The position numbers and the translations under genes are program-made. Below the pieces are notes generated by a model that saw only the letters and a program-made list of their open reading frames with translations, made no database searches and was not told where the DNA came from. A stretch of 44,700 nucleotides of DNA from Siminovitchia terrae (lineage in GTDB: Bacteria; Bacillota; Bacilli; Bacillales; Bacillaceae_C), in NCBI RefSeq assembly GCF_003605405.2, contig NZ_QYTW02000037.1:1-44700 (forward strand), in the 5' to 3' direction. The stretch's first letter is position 1, and each line of letters starts with the position of its first letter. This document shows, piece by piece, positions 10,245-42,894 of the stretch.

Positions 10245-10421
10245 TATCAAATGCGCCTTGGCGTATTTGCGCCCAAATTTTATCGAGCTCCGCTCGATAA
10301 ATTCCTCTGAAAATCTGTGGCATCCGCCGGAGGCCTTAACTTTATTTAGCTGGGGTTTGACCAATAGGCTTTCATCTCACCATTTACAGATGTGGGAGAC
10401 TTCCGCTGAATGAAGTTAACT
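10245..10421 (-). repeat. Dispersed IS605-type non-autonomous repeat, copy 1 (degenerate)
   Basis: It carries the family features: GCGCCTTGGCG near one end, the ATCGAGC/GCTCGAT hairpin, and the CCACTT/AAGTGG-like hairpin at the other. It lacks about 20 bases of the middle CCCC/GGGG hairpin and has more changes than other copies. The flanking target reads GTTAAC on the minus strand instead of TTTAAC. It separates two genes of one transcription unit. Confidence 0.8.
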
Positions 10422-10431
10422 TACCTCATCA

Positions 10432-10959
10432 CTACCCCCACCCCAGCAACGGCAAGGCCTGATCCTGCTTCCCCTGTAAAATCAACTCTCTTATCCTAGT
10501 GGAAGAAATGCGCTCCCCATTTGCACAACAGATAGGACGAATCGGGTTGACGAGGAAATGTTTCTTTAAAAGGGAAACATCCCCACCACGCTTATGTCCA
10601 AACCTAAAATCATCTCCAACAGTAATTGACCTTGGATTCATCATAGATAACTCATTAATAAAATCATCCGGCGTCCGTTGCAAATAGTGTTCATCAAATT
10701 TTGCAAGCACGACATGGTCTACACCTAAATCCTTCAAAAGCTTTAGCTTTTCATTCGGGTTTGTCAGTATCTGAGCCCCCTGAAAGTACGCTCGGGGAGG
10801 CGGATCAAATGTATACACTACACTCGATACTCGCTTGGAATGGCTGTTCTTTACCATTTCACGAATGACGGTTTGATGTCCGCAATGCACCCCATCAAAA
10901 GCTCCGATAGCAACAACCGACCCGGATAGTATAAGACTTTCAGGCTCGTGAACTCGCAA
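10432..10959 (-). CDS. FAD synthetase-like protein (RibF nucleotidyltransferase domain only)
   Basis: It matches the N-terminal FMN adenylyltransferase domain of RibF: VVAIGAFDGVHCGHQTVIREM at the start (GxFDGVHxGH nucleotide-binding motif, quoted here for its pattern), YTFDPPPRAYF, VGDDFRFGHKRGGD and the ISSTRIR motif. At 175 residues it lacks the riboflavin kinase domain of normal RibF (about 310 residues). So it should make FAD from FMN but not FMN from riboflavin. It directly follows the FADH2-using monooxygenase gene, suggesting a dedicated FAD supply. The start is TTG with GAGGGAG 5 bases upstream. The chain ends cleanly after LLGWG, before the mobile repeat. Confidence 0.82.
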   Translation of the reverse strand: MRVHEPESLILSGSVVAIGAFDGVHCGHQTVIREMVKNSHSKRVSSVVYTFDPPPRAYFQGAQILTNPNEKLKLLKDLGVDHVVLAKFDEHYLQRTPDDFINELSMMNPRSITVGDDFRFGHKRGGDVSLLKKHFLVNPIRPICCANGERISSTRIRELILQGKQDQALPLLGWG

Positions 10960-10997
10960 CTGCTCTCCCTCTTTTCATCGAATATGAAATTGCAAAG

Positions 10998-12503
10998 CTA
11001 CTTAATTACTTCTTCGACACTGCTTTGATATTCCTCAGACATTAACAGCGACTCCTCCAATGCACGATCCACACGGGAATAAGAAGGATTGTTTCTCTTA
11101 TGCACATTGTAGAACATTCCCATTTTGCGAACAGGATCTCCTGAATAATAGCGCTCATATTGTAACAGCCTTTGACCAAACGCCTCTCCGCTCAGATCCC
11201 AGGCAAGCTTGAACAAACGCACTCTCTTTTCAGATGAGATACCTGAACGGCCAGCATAATACTTATTCATATCATCAGCTATTTCCGGATTATTAAAATC
11301 TGCTCCTGTCGGTGACATCAAGAGGCCGCCCGCTGCGATTGTCTGGAGAATCTCTATTGCTCTCGGATACATATTAGGCAGTAAGCCACGAACAGTTTCC
11401 AGCGGTACAATATTTGGAATTGCTTCTCCTTGTTCCGTGATAGTAAATTCCCGTTCAGCAGTGCGCACCAATGATCTAATGGTTTCCACGCCTTGAATCA
11501 GTTCAGACAATTGATTTTGAACGTTCAGGAACCCATCCACCCCAATGGAATCTGCTATGGCACACGTCACATCAGTTACAAAAGAGATTTTTGCCAATCC
11601 CCTTACAGCCGACTGATGAGAAGGCTGTAAATTGGCGCCCGTTTTCGGATACAATAAGTTCCCGGCCTCTACATTTTGATTGATAAATACACGATCCCAA
11701 GGAACTAGCACATCATCAAAAACTAATACCGCATCCATTTCTTCAAACCTTGAAGCAAGTGGGTGATCCCACGTTGAGCGTTTTCCATCCTGGGTTTCTT
11801 CACGGCAGTAGATTTTCAAACCAGGTGTGTCGATTGGCAGAGCAAACGAAAGGGCAAACTTTTCATCACCTGGCTTAAAGCTTGGATAAGAATAAATAAT
11901 CACTTCATCTGTAATAGGCGCAAGCGTTGCCAGCATTTTAGAACCGCGGACAATTAATCCATCTTCCGCTTCTCTTACCACCCCCAGGTGAGAGTATTCT
12001 GATTCTTGTTCATGCGAAGATTTACTTCGGTCATTTTGCGGATTCACAATCGCATGTGTGAGAAATAGATCGTTATCCCTTACGTATCTGTAATAATTAA
12101 TGATATTCTCGCCGAAGCGGTCTTCCCCATACTCCCTGAAGAACCAGTCATTTGTCGCAAAGGAAGTGAGGACTACATTCAAGAAATCCGGAGTTCTCCC
12201 CATCAACCCAAAAGTAGCTTCAGCCCATATTTCGAATACGCGTCTGCGCTTCTGCAGATCCTCTCCGTCCCTTGGAATCAAAAACGAATTATTGACTCTT
12301 TCTCCTGTCTCCTCACAAATATGAGTAATTTCTTCCTGGTACTCAGGGTCATGCTGCATATCATATAGCCTGGCCAACTCTTTAATCGGCTGCGTGAAAA
12401 CCGGATGATTATATACATCTGTTATTCTTTCGCCACGAAGCCATACCTCCGGTTGCCTTGATTTAACTCCTTTAATGTAATCTGCTCCTGTTCTAATCCC
12501 CAT
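10998..12503 (-). CDS. FADH2-dependent monooxygenase of the HpaB family, probable anthranilate 3-monooxygenase
   Basis: A two-component flavin monooxygenase (oxygenase part) of 501 residues. It resembles 4-hydroxyphenylacetate 3-hydroxylase Hpa[12 protein letters not shown] at the start, [13 protein letters not shown], the [16 protein letters not shown] segment, [11 protein letters not shown] and [17 protein letters not shown]. An anthranilate 3-monooxygenase of this family is known from Geobacillus thermodenitrificans. In this window kynureninase should yield anthranilate, the dioxygenase needs 3-hydroxyanthranilate, and no kynurenine 3-monooxygenase is seen. So hydroxylation of anthranilate is the likely job. 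The ATG at 12501-12503 has GGAGGG upstream. Confidence 0.85.
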
Positions 12504-12524
12504 TTTCTTTCCCTCCATTTGTTA

Positions 12525-13016
12525 TTAAAAAGATTTATTTCCTGCTAAAATAGCTTTATATTCCGTTTCGAAAAACCTACCTCTGTAAAAAATGAGCCCT
12601 TCACGGTCACTGTGGGAAAAACCCTCAATCTTACCTACAAACAACAGATGGTCCCCACCTTCATATTCCGCCCAAGGAGAACATTCAAAATGAGCCGAGG
12701 CCCCTTTTAGTCTGGGACCTCTTGTACTTTCTTCCCATTCCACAACTAAATCTTCTTGAGGGCGCCCTGCAAATTGCATAGCATAGGCTGACTGATCCGC
12801 AGATAAAACGTTGATTACAAATGGCCTGTTCCTTAATTCTTCAAAAGCTTTTGTCCTTTTATCAATTGAAACGAGCAAAAGTGCCGGGTCCAAAGATACT
12901 GAAGTAAAGGAATTAACAGTAATCCCTCTTCTTTGACCTTCATCATTCACCCATGTGACCACTGTGACACCGGTTGCAAAACAGCCAAAGGAATTTCTTA
13001 ACTCTCTAACATCCAT
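12525..13016 (-). CDS. Flavin reductase, partner of the monooxygenase
   Basis: A 163-residue protein of the flavin reductase-like (FMN/FAD-binding split-barrel) family, with typical RNSFGCFATGVTVVTW, GITVNSFTSVSLDPALLLVSI and PFVINVLSADQ segments. It should supply reduced flavin with NAD(P)H to the HpaB-like oxygenase, whose gene starts 21 bases downstream. GGAGG lies 9 bases before the ATG. It is the first gene of the monooxygenase / FAD synthetase / isochorismatase unit. Confidence 0.9.
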   Translation of the reverse strand: MDVRELRNSFGCFATGVTVVTWVNDEGQRRGITVNSFTSVSLDPALLLVSIDKRTKAFEELRNRPFVINVLSADQSAYAMQFAGRPQEDLVVEWEESTRGPRLKGASAHFECSPWAEYEGGDHLLFVGKIEGFSHSDREGLIFYRGRFFETEYKAILAGNKSF

Positions 13017-13096
13017 GTGCTTACTTCCTCCAATCTCGGCGTTTGTAATATCACTATATTGAAAACGCTAACAACGCTCAATCTCAGGATTCCTCA

Positions 13097-13110
13097 TGAT
13101 GAAATCATCA
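13097..13110. promoter_or_regulatory. Palindrome upstream of the flavin reductase operon
   Basis: TGATGAAATCATCA is a perfect 6-2-6 palindrome about 80 bases upstream of the gene. With the flanking base it contains ATGATGAAAT, a word also present in the palindrome ahead of the dioxygenase operon. It may be a shared operator; not proven. Confidence 0.35.
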
Positions 13111-13129
13111 AAATTTTTTTCAAATCCAC

Positions 13130-13300
13130 TCAGAACAAAAGCGCAAGCGCCTGTTCATCGACGTACAGACTGAGCTGAAATGCGGAAACGCCTTGGTCAG
13201 CCCCGACAAGCATAAGACGATTCCCGAGGAGGCAGTATTTCAGCCACCACAGGGAATTGGCTTATGACCTCGAGGGGCTAGGCGTTGGAGCTAGACAAGA
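13130..13300. repeat. Bacillus-type long imperfect palindromic intergenic repeat
   Basis: Nested inverted arms: AACGCC (13187-13192) with GGCGTT (13281-13286), AGCCCC with GGGGCT (13199-13279) and GCATAAG with CTTATG inside. I recognise this type (AGCCCCGACAAGCATAAGACG and onward) from intergenic regions of many Bacillaceae. It would fold into a long stem-loop if transcribed. Confidence 0.7.
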
Positions 13301-13339
13301 GTGACTCCAACTAGATAAAGGAAACACGGCGACGAAGGC

Positions 13340-13470
13340 CGCCTCAGACCCCCACATCCTGTGGCTTCGGTGGCACTAGGACGTCCTGTCCGTCGGCAGG
13401 CTCAATCGCGACATCCTGTCGCTTCGCTTGCACTAGCACTTCCTGTACGTCGGAGCCGATGTTGACTTAT
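13340..13470. repeat. Array of four small palindromes with TCCTGT centres
   Basis: TCCTGT occurs at 13357, 13384, 13414 and 13441 (spacing 27, 30, 27). The first three have clear complementary flanks: CCAC-A..GTGG, GGAC-G..GTCC and GCGAC-A..GTCGC; the fourth has weaker flanks (GCAC-T..GTACG). The stretch is visibly richer in G and C than the genes around it. It has no coding potential I can support. With the preceding palindromic repeat it fills most of the 610-base gap before the TRAP genes. Confidence 0.6.
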
Positions 13471-13628
13471 CGTAGGAGGAGGCGCGAAGTCTGCTAGTCG
13501 ATAGGCGCTGGAGCTGGATGCTGCACAATCTGATAAACAAGTTATACACAAGTATAGATTTTTATAATTTCCAAGACTTTAAAAAAGTGCCCCTGACGGA
13601 TCACTAAAAAAATATATGTAAGATATTT

Positions 13629-14912
13629 TTACTTGTAAAGACCAGGAAGCCATAATACAGCACTTTCCCAATATGTGATAATCATCAATATAATTACAGT
13701 TGTAATCAGGAATGGCATAATGGCTTTTACAAGAGATTCTATTTTGACTTTTGCGACAGAAGAAACAATAAATAAACCTGTACCCACCGGCGGAGTTAAT
13801 AAACCGATGGTTAAGTTAATCGTAACGATAACGCCGAAATGGACAGGATCGATTTGATAGGTTACGAGAAGTGGCGCCAAAACAGGAACGAGAATGATTA
13901 GAGCTGCAATTCCATCCAATACAGTTCCCAACAAAAGCAATAAAATGTTGACCAATAAAAGAAACACAAGTGGATTTTCTGAAATGCTTAACATGGATTC
14001 GGCCATTAATTGAGGGATTCTCTCATAAGCGATGATATACCCGAACAAATTGGCCGTCACAATCAAAAATGTAATCGTCGCCGTATTGACAACTGTATTC
14101 AGCAAAATCTCCGGAAGATACTTTGCTTTTAGCTGCTTATAGGAAAAGCCGATAATGACAGCTATAATACAGGCAACAGCAGCGGATTCAGTCGGTGTGA
14201 AAATTCCACTTAATATACCATATATAATAATGAAAGGGATTAGCAACGCTGGCAAAACATTCAAAAAGCTTTTGAAAATTTCCTTTAGTGTTCCGCGTTC
14301 GCTTCTGGGAAAATTCTCTTTGACATTCATGATGCCAATGACGATGATAAACCCAATCCCCAACAAACTCCCTGGAATGATCCCCGCTATAAACAGATCA
14401 CCGATAGAAGCACCTGTCAGGGTTCCATATATGATAAACAACATACTGGGTGGAATAACTGGAGCCACCACAGATGAAGCCAATGTCAGAGCCGAAGAAA
14501 ATTCACGTGAGTATCCTTCTTTTTCCATTTCAGGCACCATTACTTTACTCATCATCGCTGCTTGTGCATTTGCTGACCCAAGTATAGAAGCAAGAAACAT
14601 ATTCGCTATGATAGAAACATAGGCTAAACCGCCTTTAAAATGACCAATCAACACTTTCGCAAATTGTATGAGCCGAGTTGTAATACCGCCAAAGTTCATC
14701 AGTTCACCAGCCAGCATAAAAAGCGGAATCGCAAGCAGTCCGAAATTATCCATCCCGGAAAACATTTTTTGAGGGACTGTCGCTAGCAATGTGAGATTAT
14801 CAGTTAAAAATAGATAAGAAAGAGATGTAATGGCCAAAACGAGAGAAATCGGGATTCCAATAATCAACAGCAGAATAAAAACGATGATGGTTGATATCAA
14901 GCCAAATGTCAT
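13629..14912 (-). CDS. dctM: TRAP transporter large permease subunit (DctM family)
   Basis: A 427-residue integral membrane protein with about 12 hydrophobic segments, the ion-coupled translocation subunit of a tripartite ATP-independent transporter. Typical stretches are IPLFMLAGELMNFGGIT, SVVAPVIPPSMLFIIYG and GLLTPPVGTGLFI. Its start overlaps the stop of the small subunit by 4 bases. The substrate is not shown by sequence; the place between two parts of the tryptophan route suggests an organic acid such as anthranilate or kynurenine, which is only inference. Confidence 0.94.
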   Translation of the reverse strand: MTFGLISTIIVFILLLIIGIPISLVLAITSLSYLFLTDNLTLLATVPQKMFSGMDNFGLLAIPLFMLAGELMNFGGITTRLIQFAKVLIGHFKGGLAYVSIIANMFLASILGSANAQAAMMSKVMVPEMEKEGYSREFSSALTLASSVVAPVIPPSMLFIIYGTLTGASIGDLFIAGIIPGSLLGIGFIIVIGIMNVKENFPRSERGTLKEIFKSFLNVLPALLIPFIIIYGILSGIFTPTESAAVACIIAVIIGFSYKQLKAKYLPEILLNTVVNTATITFLIVTANLFGYIIAYERIPQLMAESMLSISENPLVFLLLVNILLLLLGTVLDGIAALIILVPVLAPLLVTYQIDPVHFGVIVTINLTIGLLTPPVGTGLFIVSSVAKVKIESLVKAIMPFLITTVIILMIITYWESAVLWLPGLYK

Positions 14913-15394
14913 AATACATCACTTCTCTTCGGTGTTTTTTTAATTAGGTCTACCATGTAATCCAATAGATGAATAAAGGCAAAAGTCAATCCCACCGGAA
15001 CAGACAAATATGGAATCCACATCGGAATACGCATGGAACTGGACTTCTGAGGTGACAAGGTTAAGACCCACTCATAGCTTAAATACAGTAATAAAGCAAG
15101 AGCGGCCAAAATAATGATATGGGTGATAATCAAGAGAATTCTTTTACCTTTTACAGAAAAACGGTCAACCAAGAAAGTAATAGAGGCTTGGGACTTATAT
15201 TTAAGTCCCAAACTTCCTCCTAGAAAAGTCAGCCAAGTCATCATAAAAATAGCCGCTTCATTCGCCCAGAAGAGGGGGGCGCTTAAAAAATATCGGTAAA
15301 CAACAGCAATAAACAACACTAGAGTGATAGCAGCCATCAATAAAATTGAGGCGGTTTTTTCAATCCTTTCAACCCAGTTGCTCAAGGTTTTCAT
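14909..15394 (-). CDS. dctQ: TRAP transporter small permease subunit (DctQ family)
   Basis: 161 residues with four hydrophobic segments, the membrane subunit that pairs with DctM. The FWANEAAIFMMTWLTFLGGSL stretch (described by pattern: W-ANE, then TWLTF-GGS) is characteristic. It lies 15 bases after the binding-protein gene and overlaps dctM. Order P-Q-M is standard. Confidence 0.92.
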   Translation of the reverse strand: MKTLSNWVERIEKTASILLMAAITLVLFIAVVYRYFLSAPLFWANEAAIFMMTWLTFLGGSLGLKYKSQASITFLVDRFSVKGKRILLIITHIIILAALALLLYLSYEWVLTLSPQKSSSMRIPMWIPYLSVPVGLTFAFIHLLDYMVDLIKKTPKRSDVL

Positions 15395-15409
15395 AATAAG
15401 CAGCCTCCC

Positions 15410-16429
15410 CTATTTGCGGAACGTATCAATAAACTCTGAAATCAAAGGATCTTTAGCCTTATATTTTTCATCGAATTCTTTAGTATATTTTTCGAACAAG
15501 GCGGAATCAATTTCGTAGATATCCATTCCTCTTTCCTTAAGAGTTTTGATAAATTCCTCTTCTTGGGACGATCGTTTCATAGTAGCGAATTCAGACGCAG
15601 CCGCCATGGACTCTTCAACGATCTTCTTGTCCCCATCGGACATTCCATCATACAGGGCTTTATTGATGAACATGACAGAAGGCCATACCATATGATTGGT
15701 TAGAGCCCCATAACCCGTTACTTCGTTATAATTGGAAGTGATTGCTGCATCCAGATCCATATCCATTCCGTCGATGACGCCCGTTTGGGCAGATTGATAG
15801 ACATCGGGCAATGAGATGGACTCAGGGCTGATTCCAAGTGAGCGATACCAGTCTTCCAATGCCGGGCTTGGTGTTACGCGCAGGGCTAGGCCGTCCATGT
15901 CTTTTGGCGTTTCCACTTTTTCTCGGAACATCATTGTACGGTTACCGGAGAAAAAGTAATCCAATGCTTTTAACCCTTGGTCATCCAGCGTAGCCAGGAT
16001 TTTTTTTGCTTGATCACTTTTACTTGCTTCCAATGCCTCTTCATAAGAATCAAAAAGATATGGCGCAAACCATGCGCTGAACGCATCAGATTTAGATGTT
16101 AAGAAAGCGTTTGTAATAAACGCAAAGTCTAAAGAGCCTGCTTCCAGTTGTTGAACCATATCAGAGTCGCTCCCTAGCTGTCCCCCAGGATACAGTTCCA
16201 TTTTCATTCTTCCATTGGAACGTTCCTCAAGTTCCTCCGCCAACTTCTCTGCTGCTTCATTCCAAATATGATCAGGCGGAGCAATATGGCCTAACTTAAA
16301 CTTGTATGTTTTTTCTCCACCTTCACCACTGGCGCTGGACGCTTTCTTAGATTCATCACTGCCGCATGCAGCTAAAAACATCAATACCACAATCAACATG
16401 CTCAGCAAACAGATTTTGTAGTTCTTCAA
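15410..16429 (-). CDS. dctP: TRAP transporter substrate-binding lipoprotein (DctP family)
   Basis: A 339-residue extracytoplasmic binding protein with a lipoprotein signal: hydrophobic LLSMLIVVLMFLAAC, lipobox LAAC with the acylated Cys at residue 22, then a Ser/Lys-rich linker. The mature part has DctP family motifs, such as YPGGQLGSDSDMVQQL, RVTPSPALEDW (the conserved Arg that binds the ligand carboxylate) and GVIDGMDMDL. Ligands of this family are usually carboxylates. First gene of the TRAP operon; the IclR-type regulator gene lies upstream. Confidence 0.94.
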   Translation of the reverse strand: MKNYKICLLSMLIVVLMFLAACGSDESKKASSASGEGGEKTYKFKLGHIAPPDHIWNEAAEKLAEELEERSNGRMKMELYPGGQLGSDSDMVQQLEAGSLDFAFITNAFLTSKSDAFSAWFAPYLFDSYEEALEASKSDQAKKILATLDDQGLKALDYFFSGNRTMMFREKVETPKDMDGLALRVTPSPALEDWYRSLGISPESISLPDVYQSAQTGVIDGMDMDLDAAITSNYNEVTGYGALTNHMVWPSVMFINKALYDGMSDGDKKIVEESMAAASEFATMKRSSQEEEFIKTLKERGMDIYEIDSALFEKYTKEFDEKYKAKDPLISEFIDTFRK

Positions 16430-16497
16430 AACAAAGTCCCCCTAATTTCGTATTTTTATGTAGATAAATCATTGATGCAGCAATCAAACTGACAATA

Positions 16498-17286: not shown

Positions 17287-17322
17287 AGTAATCACTCCTT
17301 TTTCTTTTAGGAATTCCAACAA

Positions 17323-17498
17323 TTGAATCCACTGTCAAAGTATATAGTTCTATGTCACCCCTTTTCTAGTAAGCGCTATCATTTGGAAAATGTTAAATAT
17401 TAAACATCAATATAATGACTAAACAGGTTAATAACAAGCAAGGAGTTTAAAATAGTGAAACTTTATGTTTTTTTTTATAATTTTTTGGAGAAAAAAAG
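17323..17498. other. Gap upstream of the IclR gene
   Basis: An AT-rich stretch of 176 bases between the MFS stop and the IclR gene; it should hold the IclR promoter. I see no clear terminator or operator in it. Confidence 0.3.
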
Positions 17499-18764: not shown

Positions 18765-18960
18765 TATCAAATGCGCCTTGGCGTATTTGCGCCCAGATTT
18801 TATCGAGCTCTGCTCGATAAATTTCCTCTGAAAATCTGTGGTATCCGCCGGAGGCTTTGACTTTATTCAGCCGGGGTTTGAACCTCCACTGAATGGAATA
18901 CCAATAGGTATTCTTCTCACCACTTACAGAAGTGGGAAATTTCTGCTGAATGAAGTTAAA
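18765..18960 (-). repeat. Dispersed IS605-type non-autonomous repeat, copy 2
   Basis: A near full-length copy. All hairpins are present: CAAATGCGCCTTGGCGTATTTG end, ATCGAGC/GCTCGAT, ATTCAG-CCGGGG/CCTCC-CTGAAT, and CCACTTACAGAAGTGG. TTTAAC flanks it on the minus strand at 18955-18960. The open frame of 93 codons crossing it is a by-product. Confidence 0.88.
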
Positions 18961-19201: not shown

Positions 19202-19204
19202 ATT

Positions 19205-19852
19205 TCAACCAATCGGCCTCAACACAGCCCTCACCGGGCTCCCATCCGCCCCTTCAATTGCAAGAGGTAAAGCAATTAATTCATAATCGCCAGGTTCCAC
19301 GTCGGTCAGCACGATGTTCTCCAAAATATAAACACCGTTGTCATTCAGCGAATGATGGGCATCCATCGTTTTGCTGTCAATCGCGTCAACAGACGGGCCG
19401 TCCGTTCCAAGCAGGCGAACGCCTTTTTCTTTAAGGAACGGGCCGATATTTTCGCGGAAAACTGTAAATTTTTCAGGAAAGCGGCCCAGATCCCTTCCAT
19501 CCGAAGTTTTGAGAAGTAGACGCTCTACACCCTCCAAGCTGAACTGCTCCAGCTCTTCTTTGCCAACCATCTCACAACCAGTTACATCGACAACCCTGGC
19601 TTGCCCGACATAGATATTGACGTCCAGTTCATGAACTTTCTCTCCATTCTCGTCAAAATGGTATGGAGCATCAATATGCGTACCGGTATGGGCACTTGTT
19701 GTGAATTGTCCGATGTTGACCGACCCCGTCTGCTCTTTCGTGAAACTCAGTTTGAAGTTAAACGGCGTATCACCGGGCCAAACGGCCATATCGTTGGTCA
19801 AGGGCTGCGAAATATCAATCCACGGTTTGTTCTTCATCTCGATCACCATCAT
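19205..19852 (-). CDS. kynB: Kynurenine formamidase, copy 1
   Basis: A cyclase-family hydrolase that removes formate from N-formylkynurenine. The metal-binding motif HTGTHIDAPYH (His55, His59, Asp61, His65 from the first ATG) and the later GTDGPSVD and HHSLNDNGVYILENI motifs are typical of KynB. It is nearly the same protein as copy 2 at 27.4 kb: by eye about 20 differences over roughly 205 aligned residues. The true start may be the ATG five codons inside (19837), matching copy 2. It follows the TauD-like gene by about 100 bases instead of lying in the kyn operon. Why two copies exist is unclear; a transfer or a side activity on a related amide are options. Confidence 0.92.
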   Translation of the reverse strand: MMVIEMKNKPWIDISQPLTNDMAVWPGDTPFNFKLSFTKEQTGSVNIGQFTTSAHTGTHIDAPYHFDENGEKVHELDVNIYVGQARVVDVTGCEMVGKEELEQFSLEGVERLLLKTSDGRDLGRFPEKFTVFRENIGPFLKEKGVRLLGTDGPSVDAIDSKTMDAHHSLNDNGVYILENIVLTDVEPGDYELIALPLAIEGADGSPVRAVLRPIG

Positions 19853-25065: not shown

Positions 25066-26493
25066 ATGACGTTATATACGCTATTGGTAGACTTCACTCT
25101 CGCTAGCATACTTATATTACTAAGTATGCTAGCGCGTTCAAAAATCAAGTTCTTGCAAAAGAATTTTATTCCAGCAAGTTTATTGGCGGGTTTTTTGGGT
25201 TTAGCGTTAGGTCCCGGATTCCTGAATATCCTGCCTTTTTCAGGGGAAATCGGTTCGTATGCAGGAGTCATCATTATTTTTGTGTTTGCTTCGGTAGGAA
25301 TTAATGGATTCTCATTTTCCCCAGGGAATATGAAGAAAGACCTGAATAGAATGGGTGCATATGCTTCATACAAAATATTGATTATGTGTGTCATTATTTT
25401 TATTCCCATTGTATTTTCAATATTAGTCATTTCTAAATGGGTGCCGGAAATTAATTATGGTTTTGGATTACTCTTAGCAACGGGATTCTATGGTGGTCAC
25501 GGAACAGCAGCTGCAGTAGGGTCAACTTTTGAAAGTTTAGGTTTTACAAACGCAACAGATTTAGCCATGACCTCCGCTACCGTTGGTATTTTAGTAGGTA
25601 TTTTTGGTGGACTCATATTTATAAAAATGGCTACCAAAAAAGGATATACCCAATATGTTAAAGACTTCTCCCAAATATCAGAAGATATGAGGACAGGTTT
25701 AGTAAAGCCAGAGAATCGGCCTTCCATTGGGAAGGGGACGATTTCACCCATAGCGCTGGATCCAATAGCATTTCATTTGGGGCTTTTACTTATTCCATCC
25801 GGTTTAGGTTACTTGCTAAATACATATATTGCTGATACTTGGGGGCTCGACTTTCCAACATTTACAATAGCATTCATTGTTGCATTGGTCATGTATGCGC
25901 TTTTGGGTAAGGGACAAAAAGGTGTATATAAGTATGTAGACGAAGAAGTAGTAAATAGGTTAGGTAGTTCAGCGACCGATTACCTTGTATTTTTTGGAGT
26001 AGCCTCAATTAAGCTGCCTATCGTTCTTGAATATGCACTTCCACTTGGATTATTAATGCTTTCAGGCTTGATCATTGTTATTTTAATATTGTGGGTAGCT
26101 GGGCCTGCTATGAATTATGAAAGTTGGTTTGAACGTTCAATATTTGTTTATGGCTATGCAACAGGTGTCTTTGCGATCGGTCTGACCCTATTAAGGATAG
26201 TTGATCCAAGGAATAAATCTAAGACAATTACAGATACGGCTATTGTTGGTCCCCTTAATACGCCTATAGAGTTATTTGCATGGTCGGCTGGACCAGCCAT
26301 GCTACTAGGAGGGCAACATTGGGCGTTTGTTGGCATTTTCGCTGTAATTTCTATCTTATGTATTGTAATATCTATCAAGTTTAAATGGTGGTACTGGAAA
26401 ATACCTTTAGCGGGAAGACCGGATGCATCTGCACTTGATAGCGATGGAGTAAGCGTCAAATCCAATACTCAATCTATTCATAGATCATCATAA
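25066..26493 (+). CDS. gltS: Sodium/glutamate symporter family (GltS-like)
   Basis: A 475-residue membrane protein with the GltS hallmark GGHGTAAAVGSTF near residue 145 and many hydrophobic segments. Its usual role is Na+-driven glutamate uptake. It lies 21 bases behind the dehydrogenase, in the same sigma-54 unit, so it may bring in that enzyme's substrate. At about 475 residues it is longer than E. coli GltS (401). Codons 13-23 form a perfect 14-base inverted repeat (see the separate entry). Confidence 0.87.
   Translation: MTLYTLLVDFTLASILILLSMLARSKIKFLQKNFIPASLLAGFLGLALGPGFLNILPFSGEIGSYAGVIIIFVFASVGINGFSFSPGNMKKDLNRMGAYASYKILIMCVIIFIPIVFSILVISKWVPEINYGFGLLLATGFYGGHGTAAAVGSTFESLGFTNATDLAMTSATVGILVGIFGGLIFIKMATKKGYTQYVKDFSQISEDMRTGLVKPENRPSIGKGTISPIALDPIAFHLGLLLIPSGLGYLLNTYIADTWGLDFPTFTIAFIVALVMYALLGKGQKGVYKYVDEEVVNRLGSSATDYLVFFGVASIKLPIVLEYALPLGLLMLSGLIIVILILWVAGPAMNYESWFERSIFVYGYATGVFAIGLTLLRIVDPRNKSKTITDTAIVGPLNTPIELFAWSAGPAMLLGGQHWAFVGIFAVISILCIVISIKFKWWYWKIPLAGRPDASALDSDGVSVKSNTQSIHRSS
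25101..25134 (+). repeat. Perfect 14-base inverted repeat inside the start of gltS
   Basis: CGCTAGCATACTTA and TAAGTATGCTAGCG are exact complements around a 6-base loop, 35 bases after the start codon. As RNA this is a stable hairpin within the first codons; as DNA it is a dyad that a protein or recombinase could recognise. Confidence 0.85.
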
Positions 26494-26673: not shown

Positions 26674-26869
26674 ATCAAATGCGCCTTGGCGTATTTGCGC
26701 CCAGATTTTATCGAGCCTCCGCTCGATAAATTCCCTCTGAAAATCTGTGGCATCCGCCGGAGGCTTTGACTTTATTCAGCCGGGGTTTGAATCCCCACTG
26801 AATGGATTACCAATATGCATTCATCTCACCACTTATAGAAGTGGGAGATTTCTGCTGAATGAAGTTAAA
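26674..26869 (-). repeat. Dispersed IS605-type non-autonomous repeat, copy 3
   Basis: A full-length copy with one extra C in the ATCGAGC/GCTCGAT loop and a CACTTATAG variant in the left-end hairpin. TTTAAC flanks on the minus strand. Confidence 0.88.
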
Positions 26870-27421: not shown

Positions 27422-27423
27422 AT

Positions 27424-28056
27424 TTATAGTTGTCTCAACACAGCCCTCACCGGACTCCCGTCCGCCCCTTTGATTGAAAGCGGCAAAGCGATCAATTCAT
27501 AGTCGTCAGGCTCCACTTCGTTCAGCACGATATTCTCCAAAATATATACGCCATTGTCATTCAGCGAATGGTGGGCATCCATCGTTTTGCTGTCGACTGC
27601 ATCAACAGACGGACCGTCCGTTCCAAGCAGACGGATGCCTTTTTCTTTCAAAAACAGGCCGATATTTTCTCGAAACACTGTAAACTTTTCCGGAAATCGG
27701 TTCAGGTCTCTCCCACCCGAAGTCTTAAGAAGCAACCGCTCTATGCCTTCCAAATCAATGTGCTCCAGTTCTTCTCTTCCAACCATTTCACAACCAGTCA
27801 CGTCAACAACCCGTGCAGGGCCCACATAAATATTGATATCCAGTTCGTGCACTTTCTTCCCTTGCTCATCAAAATGGTACGGTGCATCAATATGTGTTCC
27901 CGTATGAGCGCTTGTTGTGATTTGACCAATGTTAACGGAGCCGGTCTGCTCCTTAGTAAAACTCAATTTAAAATTAAATGGCGTATCGCCGGGCCATACT
28001 GCCATATCATTGGTCAGCGGCTGCGAAATATCGATCAATCTTTGTTTCATATCCAT
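27424..28056 (-). CDS. kynB: Kynurenine formamidase, copy 2 (in the kyn operon)
   Basis: 210 residues, with the same HTGTHIDAPYH metal motif and HHSLNDNGVYILENI segment as copy 1. It is the last gene of kynU-kynA-transporter-kynB, and so is the formamidase expected to work with the adjacent tryptophan dioxygenase. A GGTGGTGG stretch precedes two close ATGs; either can be the start, and the second matches the likely start of copy 1. Confidence 0.94.
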   Translation of the reverse strand: MDMKQRLIDISQPLTNDMAVWPGDTPFNFKLSFTKEQTGSVNIGQITTSAHTGTHIDAPYHFDEQGKKVHELDINIYVGPARVVDVTGCEMVGREELEHIDLEGIERLLLKTSGGRDLNRFPEKFTVFRENIGLFLKEKGIRLLGTDGPSVDAVDSKTMDAHHSLNDNGVYILENIVLNEVEPDDYELIALPLSIKGADGSPVRAVLRQL

Positions 28057-32832: not shown

Positions 32833-33029
32833 TTATCAAATGCGCCTTGGCGTATTTGCGCCCAGATTTTATCGAGCTCCGCTCGATAAATTTCCGCTGA
32901 AAATCTGTGGCATCCGCCGGAGGCTTTGACTTTATTCAGCCGGGGTTTGTACCCCCACTGAATGGAATACCAATAGGCATTCATCTCACCACTTACTGAA
33001 GTGGGAGATTTCAGCTGAATGAAGTTAAA
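32833..33029 (-). repeat. Dispersed IS605-type non-autonomous repeat, copy 4
   Basis: A full-length copy. Its TTTAAC flank (33024-33029) contains the TAA stop of the AAA+ ATPase gene, so the element sits directly behind that stop codon. Confidence 0.9.
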
Positions 33030-35437: not shown

Positions 35438-35486
35438 TTTAAGTATTACAACATAAATCTGAATAGAGGAAATATTCCATGTGCGA

Positions 35487-36794: not shown

Positions 36795-36825
36795 AAACTA
36801 CACCTCCAATTAATTTGTAATACTG

Positions 36826-36864
36826 GCAGGCTACCTATCTAACAATTAGATATATGTAGCCTGC
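36826..36864 (-). repeat. Inverted repeat between DUF1185 gene and permease gene
   Basis: GCAGGCTAC and GTAGCCTGC with further pairing TAT/ATA inside. No U-run follows, so it is more likely an mRNA processing or protecting stem than a terminator. Confidence 0.55.
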
Positions 36865-36895
36865 ATCTAACATTCAAGTTACAAAATCAGATCAG

Positions 36896-37468: not shown

Positions 37469-37511
37469 TTTCCTTTATCCCCTTTATAGTGAATTCCTGT
37501 TTCTTTAACGA

Positions 37512-38687
37512 TTAATACATTGTCCCTGATTCATAGATTGGCTGCCTTGCTGTTGGTGGAGTGTTCCTACTTTGGTTAACCCGGACTTTTCCATCAATCA
37601 TTACCATCGCAACCGCAGGGATATCTCCGCATTCAATCGCGGACAGTGCATCTTCTCCGGATGAACCGATCGGTGAGTCAATAACTACAAGATCTGCTTC
37701 TCTCCCAGCAGCAATCATTGAAGTATTCAATTCAAAAACCTTAGATGTGTTACCTGTAGCACATGCAATCACTTGCTCTGCAGGTATGTCTGACATTGCC
37801 GCTGTCTGAACGATCGTTCTTAACATACCCAGCGGCATGACTCCACTCCCTGAAGGGGAGTCTGTTCCCAAGATAAGACGTTCAAGCTGGCCATTCTCCT
37901 TTAGCCTCCGTGCAATATGATCCGCTGCTTTCATATTGCCACACTGAACAATTTCCAATGGTATGGCACTTTCATCAATCAGCTTGTCTATTTCTTTAAT
38001 AGAAATGGCTGTCGGACCGCCATTTGTATGCGACGACAACGTTGGTGCCACGTTCATAACCATTTCTGCTGTTACAATCGAACTTCCCGGAATTGAGATA
38101 CCGCCAGTATGCATGGCCACTTTCATGCCATATTTTTTAGCCCATTCAACCATTGGTGCAGCTTCCTCTGCCTCTTTTATACTTCCAAGGCCCACTTCTC
38201 CAACTAACCACAGTCCTTCATCAGCCAGCTCTTTAAAGTCTTCTTCAACTAAACCTTTTTCGAGTATTAAAGCACCTGCATACACCTTTATCCCTTTCGG
38301 TCGGAATTTTGCAAATGATTTATGTGCAAGAACTGCAAGAGCCTTTACGCCTGCAGGATCTGTCGGCCTTCCCGGTGTATGCACTTCACCAGCCGAAATA
38401 ATAGAAGTGACACCCCCATGAACTGAGCCCTCAAGAAAGTTGAAGCTGTTTTGTCTAGGCGTGTAATCACCAAGCACCGGGTGTGTATGACTATCTATTA
38501 AGCCTGGAATAACAGTCGCCCCCTGAACATCTATCCATACATCCACTCGATAGTTTTCTAATACGTTAGTTGTCCCAGCAGCCTCTATTACTCCCTCCTT
38601 GACAATAATTGTATTGCCTTCGATTATAGGATGATTAATATCACCGCTTACAATTGTGCCGATATTTGTTAAAGCCGTAATTGTCAT
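37512..38687 (-). CDS. Enamidase-like amidohydrolase
   Basis: A metal-dependent amidohydrolase of 391 residues from the ATG at 38685-38687 (GGAGG 10 bases upstream). The two-metal site is complete: IDSHTHP, the bridging glutamate in GEVGLGSIK, VAMHTGG, SSHTNGG and the catalytic Asp in ILGTDSPSGS. A glutamate bridge in GEVGLG is a feature of enamidase, which opens the ring of 6-oxotetrahydronicotinate in anaerobic nicotinate breakdown, rather than of dihydropyrimidinase with a carboxylated lysine. Substrate here unknown; a cyclic enamide is likely. Mobile repeat copy 5 separates it from the first gene of the operon. Confidence 0.85.
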   Translation of the reverse strand: MTITALTNIGTIVSGDINHPIIEGNTIIVKEGVIEAAGTTNVLENYRVDVWIDVQGATVIPGLIDSHTHPVLGDYTPRQNSFNFLEGSVHGGVTSIISAGEVHTPGRPTDPAGVKALAVLAHKSFAKFRPKGIKVYAGALILEKGLVEEDFKELADEGLWLVGEVGLGSIKEAEEAAPMVEWAKKYGMKVAMHTGGISIPGSSIVTAEMVMNVAPTLSSHTNGGPTAISIKEIDKLIDESAIPLEIVQCGNMKAADHIARRLKENGQLERLILGTDSPSGSGVMPLGMLRTIVQTAAMSDIPAEQVIACATGNTSKVFELNTSMIAAGREADLVVIDSPIGSSGEDALSAIECGDIPAVAMVMIDGKVRVNQSRNTPPTARQPIYESGTMY

Positions 38688-38721
38688 CAGGATGCTACCT
38701 CCGTTTTGCAATAATTAAAAG

Positions 38722-38916
38722 ATCAAATGCGCCTTGGCGTATTTGCGCCCAGATTTTATCGAGCTCCGCTCGATAAATTTCCTCTGAAAATCTATGGCAT
38801 CCGCCGGAGGCTGTGACTTTATTCAGCCGGGGTTTGCCCCCCACTGAATGGAATACCAATAGGCATTCATCTCACCATTTACAGAAGTAGGAGATTTCTG
38901 CTGAATGAAGTTAAAT
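38722..38916 (-). repeat. Dispersed IS605-type non-autonomous repeat, copy 5
   Basis: A full-length copy between two genes of the sigma-54 operon. The flanking TTTAAC (38910-38915) contains the TAA stop of the hydrolase gene, the second such case among the short repeats. Confidence 0.9.
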
Positions 38917-39588
38917 ATTCTTATCCTTCAGTTGATGAATGCTCTTCATTTCTTCGATAACGTCATCAGAAGCTACTACTCTGCCGAATGCCTCGGCAAT
39001 AAGATTAAGCTCCATTTTGCACCAATCTTCTGCAGTAGCTCCTGCATGGTCATAGGAACTGACGGCATCAGATATGACAGTGACATCATAGTGTTTGTGA
39101 TAAGCCGCCCGGACTGTACTATCAACACACCAATTCAAAACTGTCCCTGCCACAAGCAATTGGGATACATCCAAGCTTTTAAGAGTCGCATCCAAATCCG
39201 TCTCTGCAAAACAGTCATATCCAAATTTTTTGATAACCCTTTCATTAGGAAGCGGCTTTAACTCAGGATAAATTTCTGTTTCAAATTTTCCATCCCACAA
39301 CTCACAATATGGAGCTTCAACTCTCAAGCCTCTTTGTTCCGCGATTTTCCAATAAAACTTATAATGAAAATCGGGCCGTATACAAAATTCCGTATAAATG
39401 ATAGGAATACCCTTTCCTCGGCAATAGGAAAGCATTTTTTTTATAACAGGGACCTGCTCGCGAGCCATTGGCACTTCCAATGGAGATCCTTTCTCTAAAA
39501 AGGCATTTTGCATATCGATAACCAGTAAAGCACTTTTTATTGGATCCATCTGAAAAACAGGCTTCCATTCCCAATAATCTTTTGCCAT
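38911..39588 (-). CDS. Isochorismatase-like cysteine hydrolase (sigma-54 operon)
   Basis: 225 residues. Triad: Asp in LLVIDMQNAF, Lys in VIKKFGYDCF and Cys in AGTVLNWCVDSTVRAAYH, with the family's cis-peptide region before it. The NWCVDST motif resembles ureidoacrylate or biuret-type amidases, but specificity is open. It is the first gene behind the sigma-54 promoter; AAAGGAGGGG precedes the ATG. It could finish the opening of the ring by releasing ammonia or a carbamoyl group. Confidence 0.87.
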   Translation of the reverse strand: MAKDYWEWKPVFQMDPIKSALLVIDMQNAFLEKGSPLEVPMAREQVPVIKKMLSYCRGKGIPIIYTEFCIRPDFHYKFYWKIAEQRGLRVEAPYCELWDGKFETEIYPELKPLPNERVIKKFGYDCFAETDLDATLKSLDVSQLLVAGTVLNWCVDSTVRAAYHKHYDVTVISDAVSSYDHAGATAEDWCKMELNLIAEAFGRVVASDDVIEEMKSIHQLKDKNI

Positions 39589-39629
39589 TTTACTCCCCTC
39601 CTTTTTGTTCGTCTTACCTATTTGTTATT

Positions 39630-39646
39630 CGCAAGAATAATGCCAA
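39630..39646 (-). promoter_or_regulatory. Sigma-54 (-24/-12) promoter of module 2
   Basis: On the minus strand TTGGCATTATTCTTGCG has GG and GC ten bases apart and the TTGGCA and TTGC blocks intact. It lies about 42 bases before the hydrolase start codon. Confidence 0.85.
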
Positions 39647-39687
39647 CCATAATAAACGGTAAAATTCATTTTTTTTCATTATTTTTA

Positions 39688-39733
39688 TATCAGTTATGAC
39701 ATATACGTCAAAAATGACATGTCAAAAATGACA
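39688..39733 (-). promoter_or_regulatory. Three activator sites upstream of the sigma-54 promoter
   Basis: TGTCAAAAATGACA (39720-39733) is a perfect palindrome; CGTCAAAAATGACA (39706-39719) differs in one base, and TATCAGTTATGACA (39688-39701) is a weaker copy. They are 14 and 18 bases apart, between the activator's stop codon and the promoter. Binding by the Fis-type domain of the activator encoded just upstream is inferred. Confidence 0.82.
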
Positions 39734-39736
39734 TAT

Positions 39737-41539
39737 TTAATCAATGTTCAGCTTTTTCATTTTTCTAATTAAAGTACTTAGGCTAACCCCTATAAGGTCC
39801 GCTGCTTTAGCCTGTGTTTTTCCGATGTCCAATGCCCGGCTGATCAAATCAAATTCCATTTGATTGGTTGCTTGCTGGAGTGTGAACAGCGGTTGATTAT
39901 TTTCTTCCATAGGATAAAGCTTTAATTTATCAGCATGATGATTAGAATTATTCGGAAAGATTTCAGGAGTCAAAATGTCACCTACAGCTGTTACAACCAT
40001 CCGCTCGATTACGTTTGCCAATTCTCGAATATTTCCGGGCCACCTATATGTCAATAAAATATCCATTAATTCATTTGAAATTATTTTATTGAGTCCATAC
40101 TTTCTATTGTATAAATTTAGGTAATGTACCGAGAGCGGAAGTATATCTTCTTCTCTGGCCCGCAACGGAGGAAGCGAGAGAGGGACAACATTCAGACGAT
40201 AATATAAATCTTCCCTGAACTTTTCTTCATCAATTAATCTTAATAAATCTTTATTAGTCGCGGAAATGAGACGGACATTCAACTTGACCGGCTTTGTTCC
40301 TCCGACTCTCGTCACTTCTTTCTCCTGTATCACATGCAAAAGTTTAACCTGTAATTTAAGTGGAAGTTCAGCTATTTCATCTAAAAACAATGTCCCGCCT
40401 TCCGCCAACTCAAACATCCCCGGCTTTCCGTTCCTGTTGGCTCCAGTAAATGCCCCACCCACATAACCAAACAGCTCCGACTCTAATAATTCCTGTGGAA
40501 TGGCGCCGCAGTTTACTATAATAAAAGGCTGATCCTGCCCTCTTTGACTATTCTGATGAATAAACCTTGCAATTACCCCTTTACCTACGCCAGACTCACC
40601 TGTTAATAAAACAGTACTTTCCACTCTGGCTACACGAGAGGCCAAGTCCAGCAGATCTTCCATCACTTTGCTCTCAGCAATGATGCTGTCTTCGTTTGTC
40701 TGTTTCAATCTGATTTGAGAAATCTCATTATGATACCTTTCTGCAAGCTTTTCTTTGCGTTCAAGATTTTCTTTTAATTGATAAAGCTCTGTTACATCCC
40801 GAATATTAATGATGACTTGATATAATTCATTATTTTCATCGAATATAGGACTACCTGTCATCATCGCCTGCTTTCCGGACTTCATTTTTTGAATGATCGT
40901 CGTTGGTTTTTTCGTCTGAATCACTTTCATTGTCACTGAATCACTGAAGTACTTTTTTTCCACAAGATGCTCTAGCGGAATACCGATAACATCCTTCCGA
41001 TTCAATCCAGTAAGCCTGTCCCATGCTTTATTAACCCTAATCGTAATGCCCTCATTGTTTGTAATGGCAAACCCATCATAGGAATGCTCTAACATTTCAT
41101 TTAGTTCATTAAAACTTTTCTGCAAAAGCATCGCTTCTCCGTTTAGTTGACTTGCTTTATTCATCTCATAAGTCAAAAGAAAAGAGAGTTGTTCATTCAT
41201 ACTTTTTTCTGTAATGACGCCTAACAAAATATTGCTTTCCACTACGGGTAAAATAGGCAAAGCAAACTGCTGGAATTGAATTTTTTCAATCGAAGTAAAT
41301 GGGGATAATACTGGTAAGTCCGTATACATAAGATCCTCTATTATCTGAATTGACCTTGACTGGGCAACGGTCTTAGCTGTTATTGCAAACATCCCCACAT
41401 ATTGGTTTGCATCATTGATCACAGGTGCATAATCAATACCTTTTTCGGCCAGTAAACTAACAGCATCATTATACGTAAAATCAGCTTTTAACGTACATTC
41501 ATACTTTTCCATAAAATCCTTCACGACTCTGGTTTTCAT
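39737..41539 (-). CDS. Sigma-54-dependent activator with CBS-PAS-AAA-Fis layout
   Basis: 600 residues. Two N-terminal CBS domains (about 1-120, with DYAPVINDANQYVGMFAI and LPILPVVESNILLGVIT) can sense nucleotides or related ligands. A PAS domain follows (about 140-255, YDGFAITNNEGITIRVNKAW), then the AAA+ domain with GESGVGKG, the sigma-54 loop GAFTGAN and TLFLDEIAELP, and a C-terminal Fis-type helix-turn-helix (GKTQAKAADLIGVSLSTLIR). It should activate the operon to its left through the sites at 39.7 kb. No receiver domain is seen. Confidence 0.95.
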   Translation of the reverse strand: MKTRVVKDFMEKYECTLKADFTYNDAVSLLAEKGIDYAPVINDANQYVGMFAITAKTVAQSRSIQIIEDLMYTDLPVLSPFTSIEKIQFQQFALPILPVVESNILLGVITEKSMNEQLSFLLTYEMNKASQLNGEAMLLQKSFNELNEMLEHSYDGFAITNNEGITIRVNKAWDRLTGLNRKDVIGIPLEHLVEKKYFSDSVTMKVIQTKKPTTIIQKMKSGKQAMMTGSPIFDENNELYQVIINIRDVTELYQLKENLERKEKLAERYHNEISQIRLKQTNEDSIIAESKVMEDLLDLASRVARVESTVLLTGESGVGKGVIARFIHQNSQRGQDQPFIIVNCGAIPQELLESELFGYVGGAFTGANRNGKPGMFELAEGGTLFLDEIAELPLKLQVKLLHVIQEKEVTRVGGTKPVKLNVRLISATNKDLLRLIDEEKFREDLYYRLNVVPLSLPPLRAREEDILPLSVHYLNLYNRKYGLNKIISNELMDILLTYRWPGNIRELANVIERMVVTAVGDILTPEIFPNNSNHHADKLKLYPMEENNQPLFTLQQATNQMEFDLISRALDIGKTQAKAADLIGVSLSTLIRKMKKLNID

Positions 41540-41717
41540 AAAATTAAAAACCTCCCTTGTACCAAAATTAAGAATTAATCAAATATAAAAATCAATCATC
41601 AGTTTTTTCCAGCCATTTGATTCTCTTAAGCTTTTTTATTATAAATGAGATATTTCAAAAGAAAACAAAAAAATTCGAATACAGGACTCTTTTTGCAAGC
41701 CCATATTCGAAAACTGA
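41540..41717. other. Gap upstream of the activator gene
   Basis: 178 AT-rich bases that should hold the activator's promoter; no standout motif. It ends at mobile repeat copy 6. Confidence 0.3.
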
Positions 41718-41855
41718 ATCAAATGCGCCTTGGCGTATTTGCGCCCAGATTTTACTTAATTCAGCTGGGGTTTGAACCCCCACTGAATGGAATACCAATA
41801 GGCATTCATCTCACCACGTACAGAAGTGGGAGACTTCTGCTGAATGAAGTTAAAT
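41718..41855 (-). repeat. Dispersed IS605-type non-autonomous repeat, copy 6 (internal deletion)
   Basis: Both ends are intact, but about 58 bases with the ATCGAGC/GCTCGAT hairpin are missing, so the copy is about 138 bases. It shows that the ends and the two remaining hairpins can persist without the middle. TTTAAC flanks on the minus strand. Confidence 0.87.
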
Positions 41856-41916
41856 TTACTGGTTTTTGTCCCACTGCTTGTTGCACAAGCGAATGGCTAG
41901 CTCGGCATTTTCGTCA

Positions 41917-42675
41917 TCACTGATTCTGCTCTTCGCTTTCTTTTTGCTGCCCTTTTTGTTCAATCAGAAAAAGCTGCAATGGCTCCACGGAACCATTCAT
42001 AAGTTTGTAAATGTAAGAGGAAGTGAGATGGTAACTGTTCTCGATTTTTTCGGCGAGGTAGTTGGCTCTTTCAAACAAAATGGAACGGATATTTGTCACT
42101 TGCCTGAGGATTTTTTCAGTGATCGCTTCTTGGTTATCCAATCGGCTAATCACTTCTTGATGCCTTTCTTCCTGCTTCAAAACTTGTGCAGTCATCTCTT
42201 TTTGGAGTTCATACTGCTCATTTAATTTCGTTAAAAGCTCTTCATTGTCAACTTCTACTGATTTTAAACGCTGTTCAATTTCTGCATTCGTCCCACTCAC
42301 TTGCAGAAGCTGCTCCATTACTTCTTTTTTAAAGAGGATCTCCTGTTCAAGCATCTCCTCCAGTTTTTGGTTTTTCTCATCAATAGCCATTAACTGGCCC
42401 TTTACGTTTTCATGGTCTTCAGCATGATTCCTGTCATTTCTTCTTAACTCTTTCAGCTGATAATTCACTTTCTTCCATTGATTCTTTCGTATCTGTTCCT
42501 GATTTTTCATTACTTGATTCAAATCCCAAAAGGATTGCTGCAATATGGAGTTCGCTTTTTTCTGTGCCTCCATAAACTCGGACCATTCATCTATTTGAGC
42601 AACCGATTGGTTGGGTTCATCGATCTTTTCTTCAGTTTTATAAATATAGTGTTCTTCATTGAAATACAAACCCAT
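41917..42675 (-). CDS. Coiled-coil protein of unknown function
   Basis: 252 residues, soluble, without a signal peptide. From about residue 30 to 225 it is almost entirely predicted coiled coil, rich in Glu, Gln, Lys and Leu with heptad-like spacing (for example LKELRRNDRNHAEDHENVKG). The N-terminus MGLYFNEEHYIYKTEEKID could be a small separate part. I know no family. It stands alone between two mobile repeats (copies 6 and 7), and its start lies only 23 bases before copy 7, which may have displaced its promoter. Confidence 0.72.
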   Translation of the reverse strand: MGLYFNEEHYIYKTEEKIDEPNQSVAQIDEWSEFMEAQKKANSILQQSFWDLNQVMKNQEQIRKNQWKKVNYQLKELRRNDRNHAEDHENVKGQLMAIDEKNQKLEEMLEQEILFKKEVMEQLLQVSGTNAEIEQRLKSVEVDNEELLTKLNEQYELQKEMTAQVLKQEERHQEVISRLDNQEAITEKILRQVTNIRSILFERANYLAEKIENSYHLTSSYIYKLMNGSVEPLQLFLIEQKGQQKESEEQNQ

Positions 42676-42697
42676 GTTCCTTTACACCCTCCCTTGC

Positions 42698-42894
42698 TTA
42701 TCAAATTCGTCTTGGCGTATTTGCGTCCAGATTTTATCGAGCTCCACTCGATAAATTTCCGCTGAAAATCTGTGGCATCCGCCGGAGGCTTTGACTATAT
42801 TCAGCCGGGGTTGAACCCCCACTGAATGGAGCACCAATATGCATTCATCTCACCACTTACAGAAGTGGGATATTTCTGCGGAATAAAGTTAAAT
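42698..42894 (-). repeat. Dispersed IS605-type non-autonomous repeat, copy 7
   Basis: A full-length copy with more point changes (AAATTCGTCTTGG, GCGGAATAAAG). TTTAAC flanks on the minus strand. Confidence 0.87.

Follow-up and report, generated by a model that had tools for sequence, protein, structure and literature searches.

A directional repeat in the Siminovitchia terrae window

The window analysed in this study is a 44,700-nt stretch of DNA from Siminovitchia terrae (NZ_QYTW02000037.1), which forms an entire contig (C31) of a draft genome of 5.30 Mb in 68 contigs. It carries seven copies of a structured repeat and, at the contig end, the 3' part of a tnpB gene. A first-pass annotation had described the repeats as apparent non-autonomous elements of IS605 type that share a core of about 195 bases. 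All seven were found on the minus strand at the positions described, measured here from TTTAAC to TTTGAT. The core length held for five copies (194-196 nt), whereas copies 1 and 6 are shorter (175 and 137 nt). The hairpins were present and terminal inverted repeats absent, in agreement with the earlier description, and GATGAATGC, said to be exact in most copies, was exact in five of seven. In this study, we found that about 190 bases are inserted 3' of TTTAA and that the orientation of the copies tracks replication, not transcription. The repeat is likely to be a non-autonomous element that works like the insertion sequences (IS) of the IS200/IS605 family and resembles the PATEs of Haloquadratum.

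Edges, target and empty orthologous sites

The edges were determined in a sample of 1.60 Mb of the genome (contigs C1, C12, C23 and C45, parts of C4 and C6, and the window), which contained 185 copies, 161 of them full length. In an alignment of 148 full copies, conservation extended from TTTAAC to TTTGAT over 195 bases. The first and last columns of the element held 1.5 and 1.8 bits, and the adjoining outside columns 0.2 and 0.3 bits. The first 30 outside bases on each side did not exceed 0.3 bits; some columns about 45 bases downstream, at the gapped end of the alignment, reached 0.6. TTTAA stood directly 5' of 140 of the 161 full copies, and the last six bases were TTTGAT in 148. The fixed target had been given as TTTAAC; TTTAA is indeed fixed, but the C is either the first base of the element or ambiguous.

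Orthologous sites were compared with those of relatives, namely Siminovitchia fordii (G024), Bacillus norwichensis (G026), Bacillus sp. HF117_J1_D (G027) and the congener G025. The stricter comparison required both flank matches to lie within 25 bases of the edge and was run in both directions; 160 full copies of the own genome and 18 copies of relatives were tested, from which 24 and 12 sites were aligned. Among these 36 sites, 23 were filled, eight held 4-7 bases in place of 194-196, and five were classed as other. The eight empty sites derive from seven insertions, as window copy 7 was scored in two relatives. A target duplication, which the first-pass annotation had named as an observation that would contradict its reading, was found at none of the eight. 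The same annotation expected TTTAAC at empty sites; the bases were exactly TTTAA in three of eight, and the literal TTTAAC was not required. With 4-7 bases and no target duplication at the empty sites, these results indicate an insertion of about 190 bases on the 3' side of TTTAA.

Window copy 7 is the clearest case. When its flanks are joined through TTTAA, the junction is the one seen in G025 and G024; TGTAA stands there in G027, and G026 is filled. The own genome is itself empty at C1:116640 (TTTAA), where G026 is filled, and at C23:350252 (TTTTAA), where G027 is filled. Two sites beyond the eight also read TTTAA: window copy 7 in G024, and own C23:296949 in G027, which sits in a short tandem repeat and was classed as other. 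The other class further includes a partial element in one relative and an unrelated right-hand sequence in one. Pairs from a looser comparison with diverged or ambiguous flanks (own C1:94080, 145193, 163220, 185916 and 194009; C12:84482 and 177876) were not used for the target. C23:40795 against G026, with five bases (TTGTA) and weak flanks, lies outside the stricter count. The features of the window are collected in Table 1.

Table 1. Copies of the repeat and related features in the window
Feature	Position	Strand	Length (nt)	Remarks
Copy 1	10246-10420	minus	175	5' edge GTTAAC; internal deletion of about 19 nt; AAGGAGG immediately after its end
Copy 2	18766-18960	minus	195	Site in G026 without the element, also without a clean TTTAA
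Copy 3	26674-26869	minus	196	Past the 3' end of the plus-strand open reading frame (ORF) 25066-26493; site in G024 without the element, with indel differences
Copy 4	32835-33029	minus	195	Site in G025 empty; five bases TGTAG replace the element
Copy 5	38722-38915	minus	194	
Copy 6	41718-41854	minus	137	Internal deletion of about 58 nt, which takes part of the 3' domain; not mentioned in the first-pass annotation
Copy 7	42700-42893	minus	194	Filled in G026; empty TTTAA in G024 and G025; TGTAA in G027
Empty site TTTAA	12525-12529	minus		Full copy at the orthologous place in G026 (contig C41)
tnpB, 3' part at contig end	44479-44685	minus		IS605-type family; end hairpin TCTCCCACTT/AAGTGG.GAGA matches the 5' hairpin of the repeat

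Copy number and distribution over genomes

A search of the whole genome and of relatives had been proposed for the repeat. A 27-base pattern of the 3' end, with up to three mismatches, gave 302 and 238 matches on the two strands of the genome, 540 in total, and its reversed control gave 0; the repeat is therefore not a product of chance. A 40-base pattern of the 5' end gave 259 and 200 matches, 459 in total. The strand split of the 3'-end matches was very uneven contig by contig.

The 3'-end pattern was found in six of 34 genomes of the family: the own genome (G000, 540), G026 (139), G027 (50), G024 (11), G006 (2) and G020 (1). The congeners G025 and G028 had 0 matches. A stricter pattern occurred in 11 of 299 genomes of the order, the own genome included, mostly in two further genera, g60 (86, 41 and 78 matches; G093 none) and g82 (29, 50, 36 and 32). 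A scan of named genomes gave at least 69 stretches; among the matches listed were Schinkia, Fredinandcohnia, Lederbergia, Cytobacillus, Peribacillus and Amphibacillus. The distribution over Bacillaceae is patchy. Three viral contigs of IMG/VR (L163, L164 and L165) hold part of the 3'-end pattern, and the element may also reside on phage or prophage DNA.

Orientation relative to replication

Fork direction was inferred for each contig from gene strand and GC skew, independently of the repeats and without using the position of the origin. In the 1.60 Mb sample, 179 of 185 copies (156 of 161 full copies) were directed with the fork, irrespective of how the neighbouring genes run. Equal numbers on both strands of one replichore, which would have contradicted the first-pass annotation, were thus not observed. 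For comparison with transcription, copies were sorted by the gap in which they lie, leaving out two copies in ORFs and six at sequence ends. In gaps between two genes that oppose the fork, 12 of 12 copies followed the fork and were antisense to both genes. Fork-directed copies made up 27 of 27 in divergent gaps, 26 of 28 in convergent gaps and 106 of 110 in leading-strand tandem gaps. With an ORF cut-off of 600 nt the values were 11/11 for opposing genes, 21/21 for divergent and 22/24 for convergent gaps, and the result also held at 450 nt. As all 12 copies between fork-opposing genes still follow the fork, orientation tracks replication and not transcription. A review describes the orientation of the IS200/IS605 family as following host replication (PMC5371812).

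In other genera, the strand of the element was the G-rich strand at 48 of 58 loci (6-8 kb), a sign test that was correct for 183 of 186 eight-kb windows of the own genome. Of the fork-directed TTTAA sites, 75% (2781/3707) fall within ORFs, yet just two of the 185 copies lay in an ORF of 100 aa or more, which indicates that insertions in genes were removed or avoided.

Anatomy, conserved structure and the Bacillaceae-1 hairpin

The 5' part consists of the TTTAA target, C and 8-9 bases, CAGAA(A/G), a hairpin TCTC-CCACTT-CTGT-AAGTGG-T-GAGA and GATGAATGC. It is followed by a hairpin around GGGGTTCAAACCCC, then by GCTGAATAAAGTTAAA, which is able to pair with the 5' edge TTTAACTTTATTCAGC, and by GCC-TCC-GGC. 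The 3' part has a stem CAGATT/AATCTG around TTATCGAGC/GCTCGATAA and ends with CAAAT-AC-GCC-AA-GGC-GC-ATTTG-AT. In 59 aligned copies from other genomes, the CAGATT/AATCTG helix showed 14 double changes that keep pairing, against a shuffled mean of 2.2 and maximum of 6, and the outer arm showed 9, against a mean of 2.4 and maximum of 6. The other five of the seven helices counted in these copies had double changes not above the shuffled maximum, and RNAalifold on the same copies gave three short helices only. Outside the genus, the mean pairwise identity was 0.86 in the 3' domain and 0.73 in the 5' domain (35 copies), the 3' value being biased upward because the last 28 bases of the domain selected most of these loci.

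Conserved structure of this kind is also expected of a cis-regulatory RNA, a leader or riboswitch-like motif kept upstream of genes that only resembles a repeat. The compensatory change in CAGAUU/AAUCUG fits such an RNA. A purine-rich stretch and a start codon follow closely after the ends of copies 1 and 7, and in 136 of 182 cases a copy and the gene that comes after it on the 3' side share a strand. However, the 12 copies between lagging-strand genes are all antisense to both neighbours, orthologous sites are empty in relatives, one genome has 540 matches and two congeners none, and Rfam at the gathering threshold gave 0 matches in the window. We regard a cis-regulatory RNA as very improbable.

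An equal fork bias would be expected of a retroelement whose RNA or cDNA copy enters the lagging-strand template, and the structured, conserved 3' domain would suit it as well. Some group II introns insert into lagging-strand template DNA. Against a retroelement, the TTTAA target and the IS605-like left hairpin would go unexplained, the window had no Rfam match as above, and among four loci of other genomes searched up to E = 5, Bacillaceae-1 was the sole strong match inside a copy. This explanation is hardly probable.

Bacillaceae-1 (Rfam RF01690) scored 72.3 bits in locus L158 and 71.7 bits in L149, and a simple pattern placed a similar hairpin inside 12 of 72 copies listed from other genomes. 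This hairpin is an insert that is absent from most copies and from the window, and it may be a nested mobile repeat. The terms 'transposon' and 'repetitive element' are absent from the main text of the paper that defines Bacillaceae-1 (PMC2864571). In two genomes of Fredinandcohnia onubensis, the same orthologous copy has the Bacillaceae-1 hairpin in one (L108) and lacks this 3' hairpin in the other (L105).

Two further readings of the conserved sequence were rejected. The consensus has an open frame without a Pfam match, and the copies differ by indels outside multiples of three, so a protein-coding reading was not kept. Under guided targeting, TTTAAC would pair with an internal GTTAAA arm, and this pairing covaries in some copies of other genera. 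The reading was not adopted, because in the own genome the fourth target base hardly varies (1.7 bits) while the column opposite it in the pairing is mixed (1.0 bit). The covariation of target and arm would be explained equally well by arm correction in short hairpins. In the genomes of L137, L158, L149, L120, L153 and L117, the 5' hairpin is short and well paired, varies in sequence among copies and sometimes includes bases at target positions; such variable hairpins could reflect arm correction or guided targeting.

Relation to IS605-type elements

The genome holds 15 tnpB matches and four Y1 transposase matches. One tnpB family (among L055-L067) has a right-end hairpin TCTCCCACTT...AAGTGG.GAGA with last bases TTCAA, and its left end reads TTTAT-C...GACAGAAGACTCCCACTTC-loop-AAGTGGGAGATGAATG. 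A search for the IS605-type left-end hairpin gave 19 loci in five of 299 genomes, all 19 preceded by TTTATC; by eye, several continue into a tnpB-like frame, and no adjoining tnpA was noticed. The repeat shares with this left end the hairpin CAGAAG.CTCCCACTTC...AAGTGG.GAG.GAATG. The left end of the repeat is of the same kind as the IS605-type left end, with TTTAA replacing TTTAT. TTTAA is given as the predicted insertion site of its element in a study of an IS605-type TnpB (PMC11043419).

The closest comparison in the same genome is a TnpB element of IS605 type (the L058/L325 family). Its left end is alike in having the target TTTAT, then C and CAGAAG, and continuing with the hairpin CTCCCACTTC...AAGTGGGAG and GATGAATG. 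The two differ in the target (TTTAT against TTTAA) and in the right end, as GGAATCTCCCACTTC...GAGAGGTTCAA is unlike the 3' end of the repeat. The tnpB fragment at the end of the window is likewise related to the repeat through the ends of its family and does not belong to it. At L067 (C1:282161 of the own genome), the first 15 bases of the repeat, TTTAACTTCATTCAG, are fused directly to the 3' part of a tnpB gene; this locus is possibly a recombinant of the two element types. No consistent co-occurrence with TnpB was found in 15 genomes, of which G024, G254, G206 and G297 had no match and G156 had one below the cut-off.

Search for a mobilising enzyme

The own Y1 genes were rejected as the mobiliser. 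By eye, two look IS200-type with other ends and one is RAYT-like with its own repeats; the fourth, which is broken, had no matching ends by the end profile alone. An autonomous parent was sought in the sequence examined as a left and a right end profile separated by no more than 4 kb. Seven pairs were more than 400 bases apart, and they are not parents, because three are solo left ends with a separate full copy and four involve weak matches.

The RAYT-like gene, L053 (C13:34702-35028), which we take to be such by eye, raises the explanation that the repeat is a REPIN-like element moved by this Y1 protein. An unbroken gene of the L053 type occurs in G000, G026 and G027 (540, 139 and 50 matches), and G025 and G028 (0 matches) have no Y1 match at all. 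The REPIN pattern combines hundreds of non-autonomous copies with a transposase that lies apart from them (PMC3116915). However, the repeats that flank L053 in the own genome are of a different type of its own, GGGGTCAGACCCC, and the element is directional and not an inverted pair. In G024, with 11 matches, every Y1 match is broken or partial; copies occur in G156 and G276, which lack a Y1 match, and G006 and G020 have such genes but only 2 and 1 matches. Movement by L053 is therefore improbable in our view. In G026 and G027, a copy of the repeat lies about 1 kb from the RAYT-like gene, on one side only (L303 and L306). Y1 genes similar to L053 in score and length are present in G026, G027, G006 and G020.

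Within the window, the minus-strand stretches 19218-19517 and 27434-27733 (300 nt, 85% identity) lie in ORFs of 215 and 210 aa, which are apparently paralogous genes.

Discussion

We consider it likely that the repeat is a non-autonomous, PATE-like element of about 190 bases that works like IS200/IS605. This reading starts from the observed insertion junctions, the lack of target duplication, the TTTAA target, the fork orientation, the copy number and the shared 5' hairpin. The element would probably be peeled out and pasted as single-stranded DNA during replication, its insertion point on the lagging-strand template being just 3' of TTTAA. The transposase, a Y1 (HUH) enzyme of IS200/IS605 type, would be supplied in trans, and the 5' hairpin and 3' structure would be its putative binding sites. 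The single-stranded intermediate and the class of enzyme are proposed from the mechanism of IS608 and ISDra2 (PMC5371812).

Several observations weigh against this reading. An exact TTTAA is missing at five of the eight empty sites, which read TGTAA, TGTAG, TTAAA, a 7-base stretch with TATAA, and TTCT. Own C31:18766 (against G026) and C31:26674 (against G024) show small deletions or indels and no clean TTTAA. The imperfect empty sites may reflect later mutation, as the flanks of the relatives are 78-97% alike. By eye, the 3' end is unlike any IS right end examined in up to 330 nt after 14 of the 15 own tnpB matches. Right-end hairpins of IS608 are spaced from the edge, and the outermost 3' hairpin of the repeat, two bases from the edge, is unlike them. 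No Y1 transposase with the ends of the repeat was found in the own genome, and no matching ends were found among 48 Y1-match loci of 17 genomes (21 searched; eight further matches without a locus were left out). Whole copies of the repeat lie within four Y1 loci (L052, L303, L306 and L350), and we take these to be separate copies; the other end-profile matches were weak. G156 (29 pattern matches) and G276 (36) had no Y1 match.

In the first-pass annotation, the repeats had been judged to look like IS605-type elements. The way of working like IS200/IS605 is well supported; strict membership of the family would be tentative, because the right end and the transposase are unmatched. Given the copy-rich G156 and G276 without a Y1 match, and no Y1 locus with the ends of the repeat, the mobiliser would seem to be either lost or something else. 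The latter leads to a reading that we find unlikely, in which the repeat forms a separate class of single-strand-inserting element. It would combine an IS605-type left end with an unrelated, structured and conserved 3' domain that stops precisely at the host junction, and its enzyme would differ from the classical Y1 TnpA. The 3' domain could then function as an RNA, or as a landing pad in the DNA for that enzyme. A role as a TnpB guide RNA is the less likely form of it, as TnpB matches are absent from G254, a genome with 50 pattern matches.

The likely, PATE-like reading can be compared with systems already described. PATEs of Haloquadratum are reported to leave no room for a transposase, to lack terminal inverted repeats and target duplication, and to carry near-terminal palindromes related to IS605-type elements (PMC3119063). 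Similarly, the repeat has no terminal inverted repeats, is too short for a transposase (195-nt alignment, 148 copies), and has a fixed short 5' target, no duplication, fork orientation and a left palindrome related to an IS605-type element. A right-end palindrome related to such an element was not seen; the 3' end has no IS counterpart found, and the 3' domain is common to several genera, in which the repeat differs from PATEs. The hosts are haloarchaea in one case and Bacillaceae in the other, and 177 and 194 PATE copies over six families are given for two strains, compared with 540 matches of one family here. The same account describes strain-specific PATE insertions although nearly all IS200-type transposase genes of Haloquadratum are broken.

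The bcr1 repeat of the Bacillus cereus group is likewise described as short, high-copy and mobile-like, with a 5-base TTTAT motif; by that description it differs in having at most 130 integral copies per strain, in its limitation to the B. cereus group and in TTTAT instead of TTTAA (PMC6542083). REPINs also have hundreds of non-autonomous copies with a Y1 transposase elsewhere in the genome, but they are described as inverted pairs of short REP hairpins (PMC3116915), unlike the directional 190-mer. Compared with PATEs and, by description, with bcr1, the present repeat has more copies, a wider spread and a conserved 3' domain. We found no description of it in the open-access literature.

The 540 matches in 5.3 Mb would amount to up to about 100 kb, or 2% of the genome, each recording fork direction at its site. 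The set of repeats is a natural and statistically strong record of lagging-strand-type insertion that can be separated from the direction of transcription. It raises the question of the enzyme that spread the copies, given that dozens of them occur in two genomes where Y1 matches are absent. In addition, the nesting of Bacillaceae-1 suggests that this motif may be mobile DNA and not a free-standing RNA gene.

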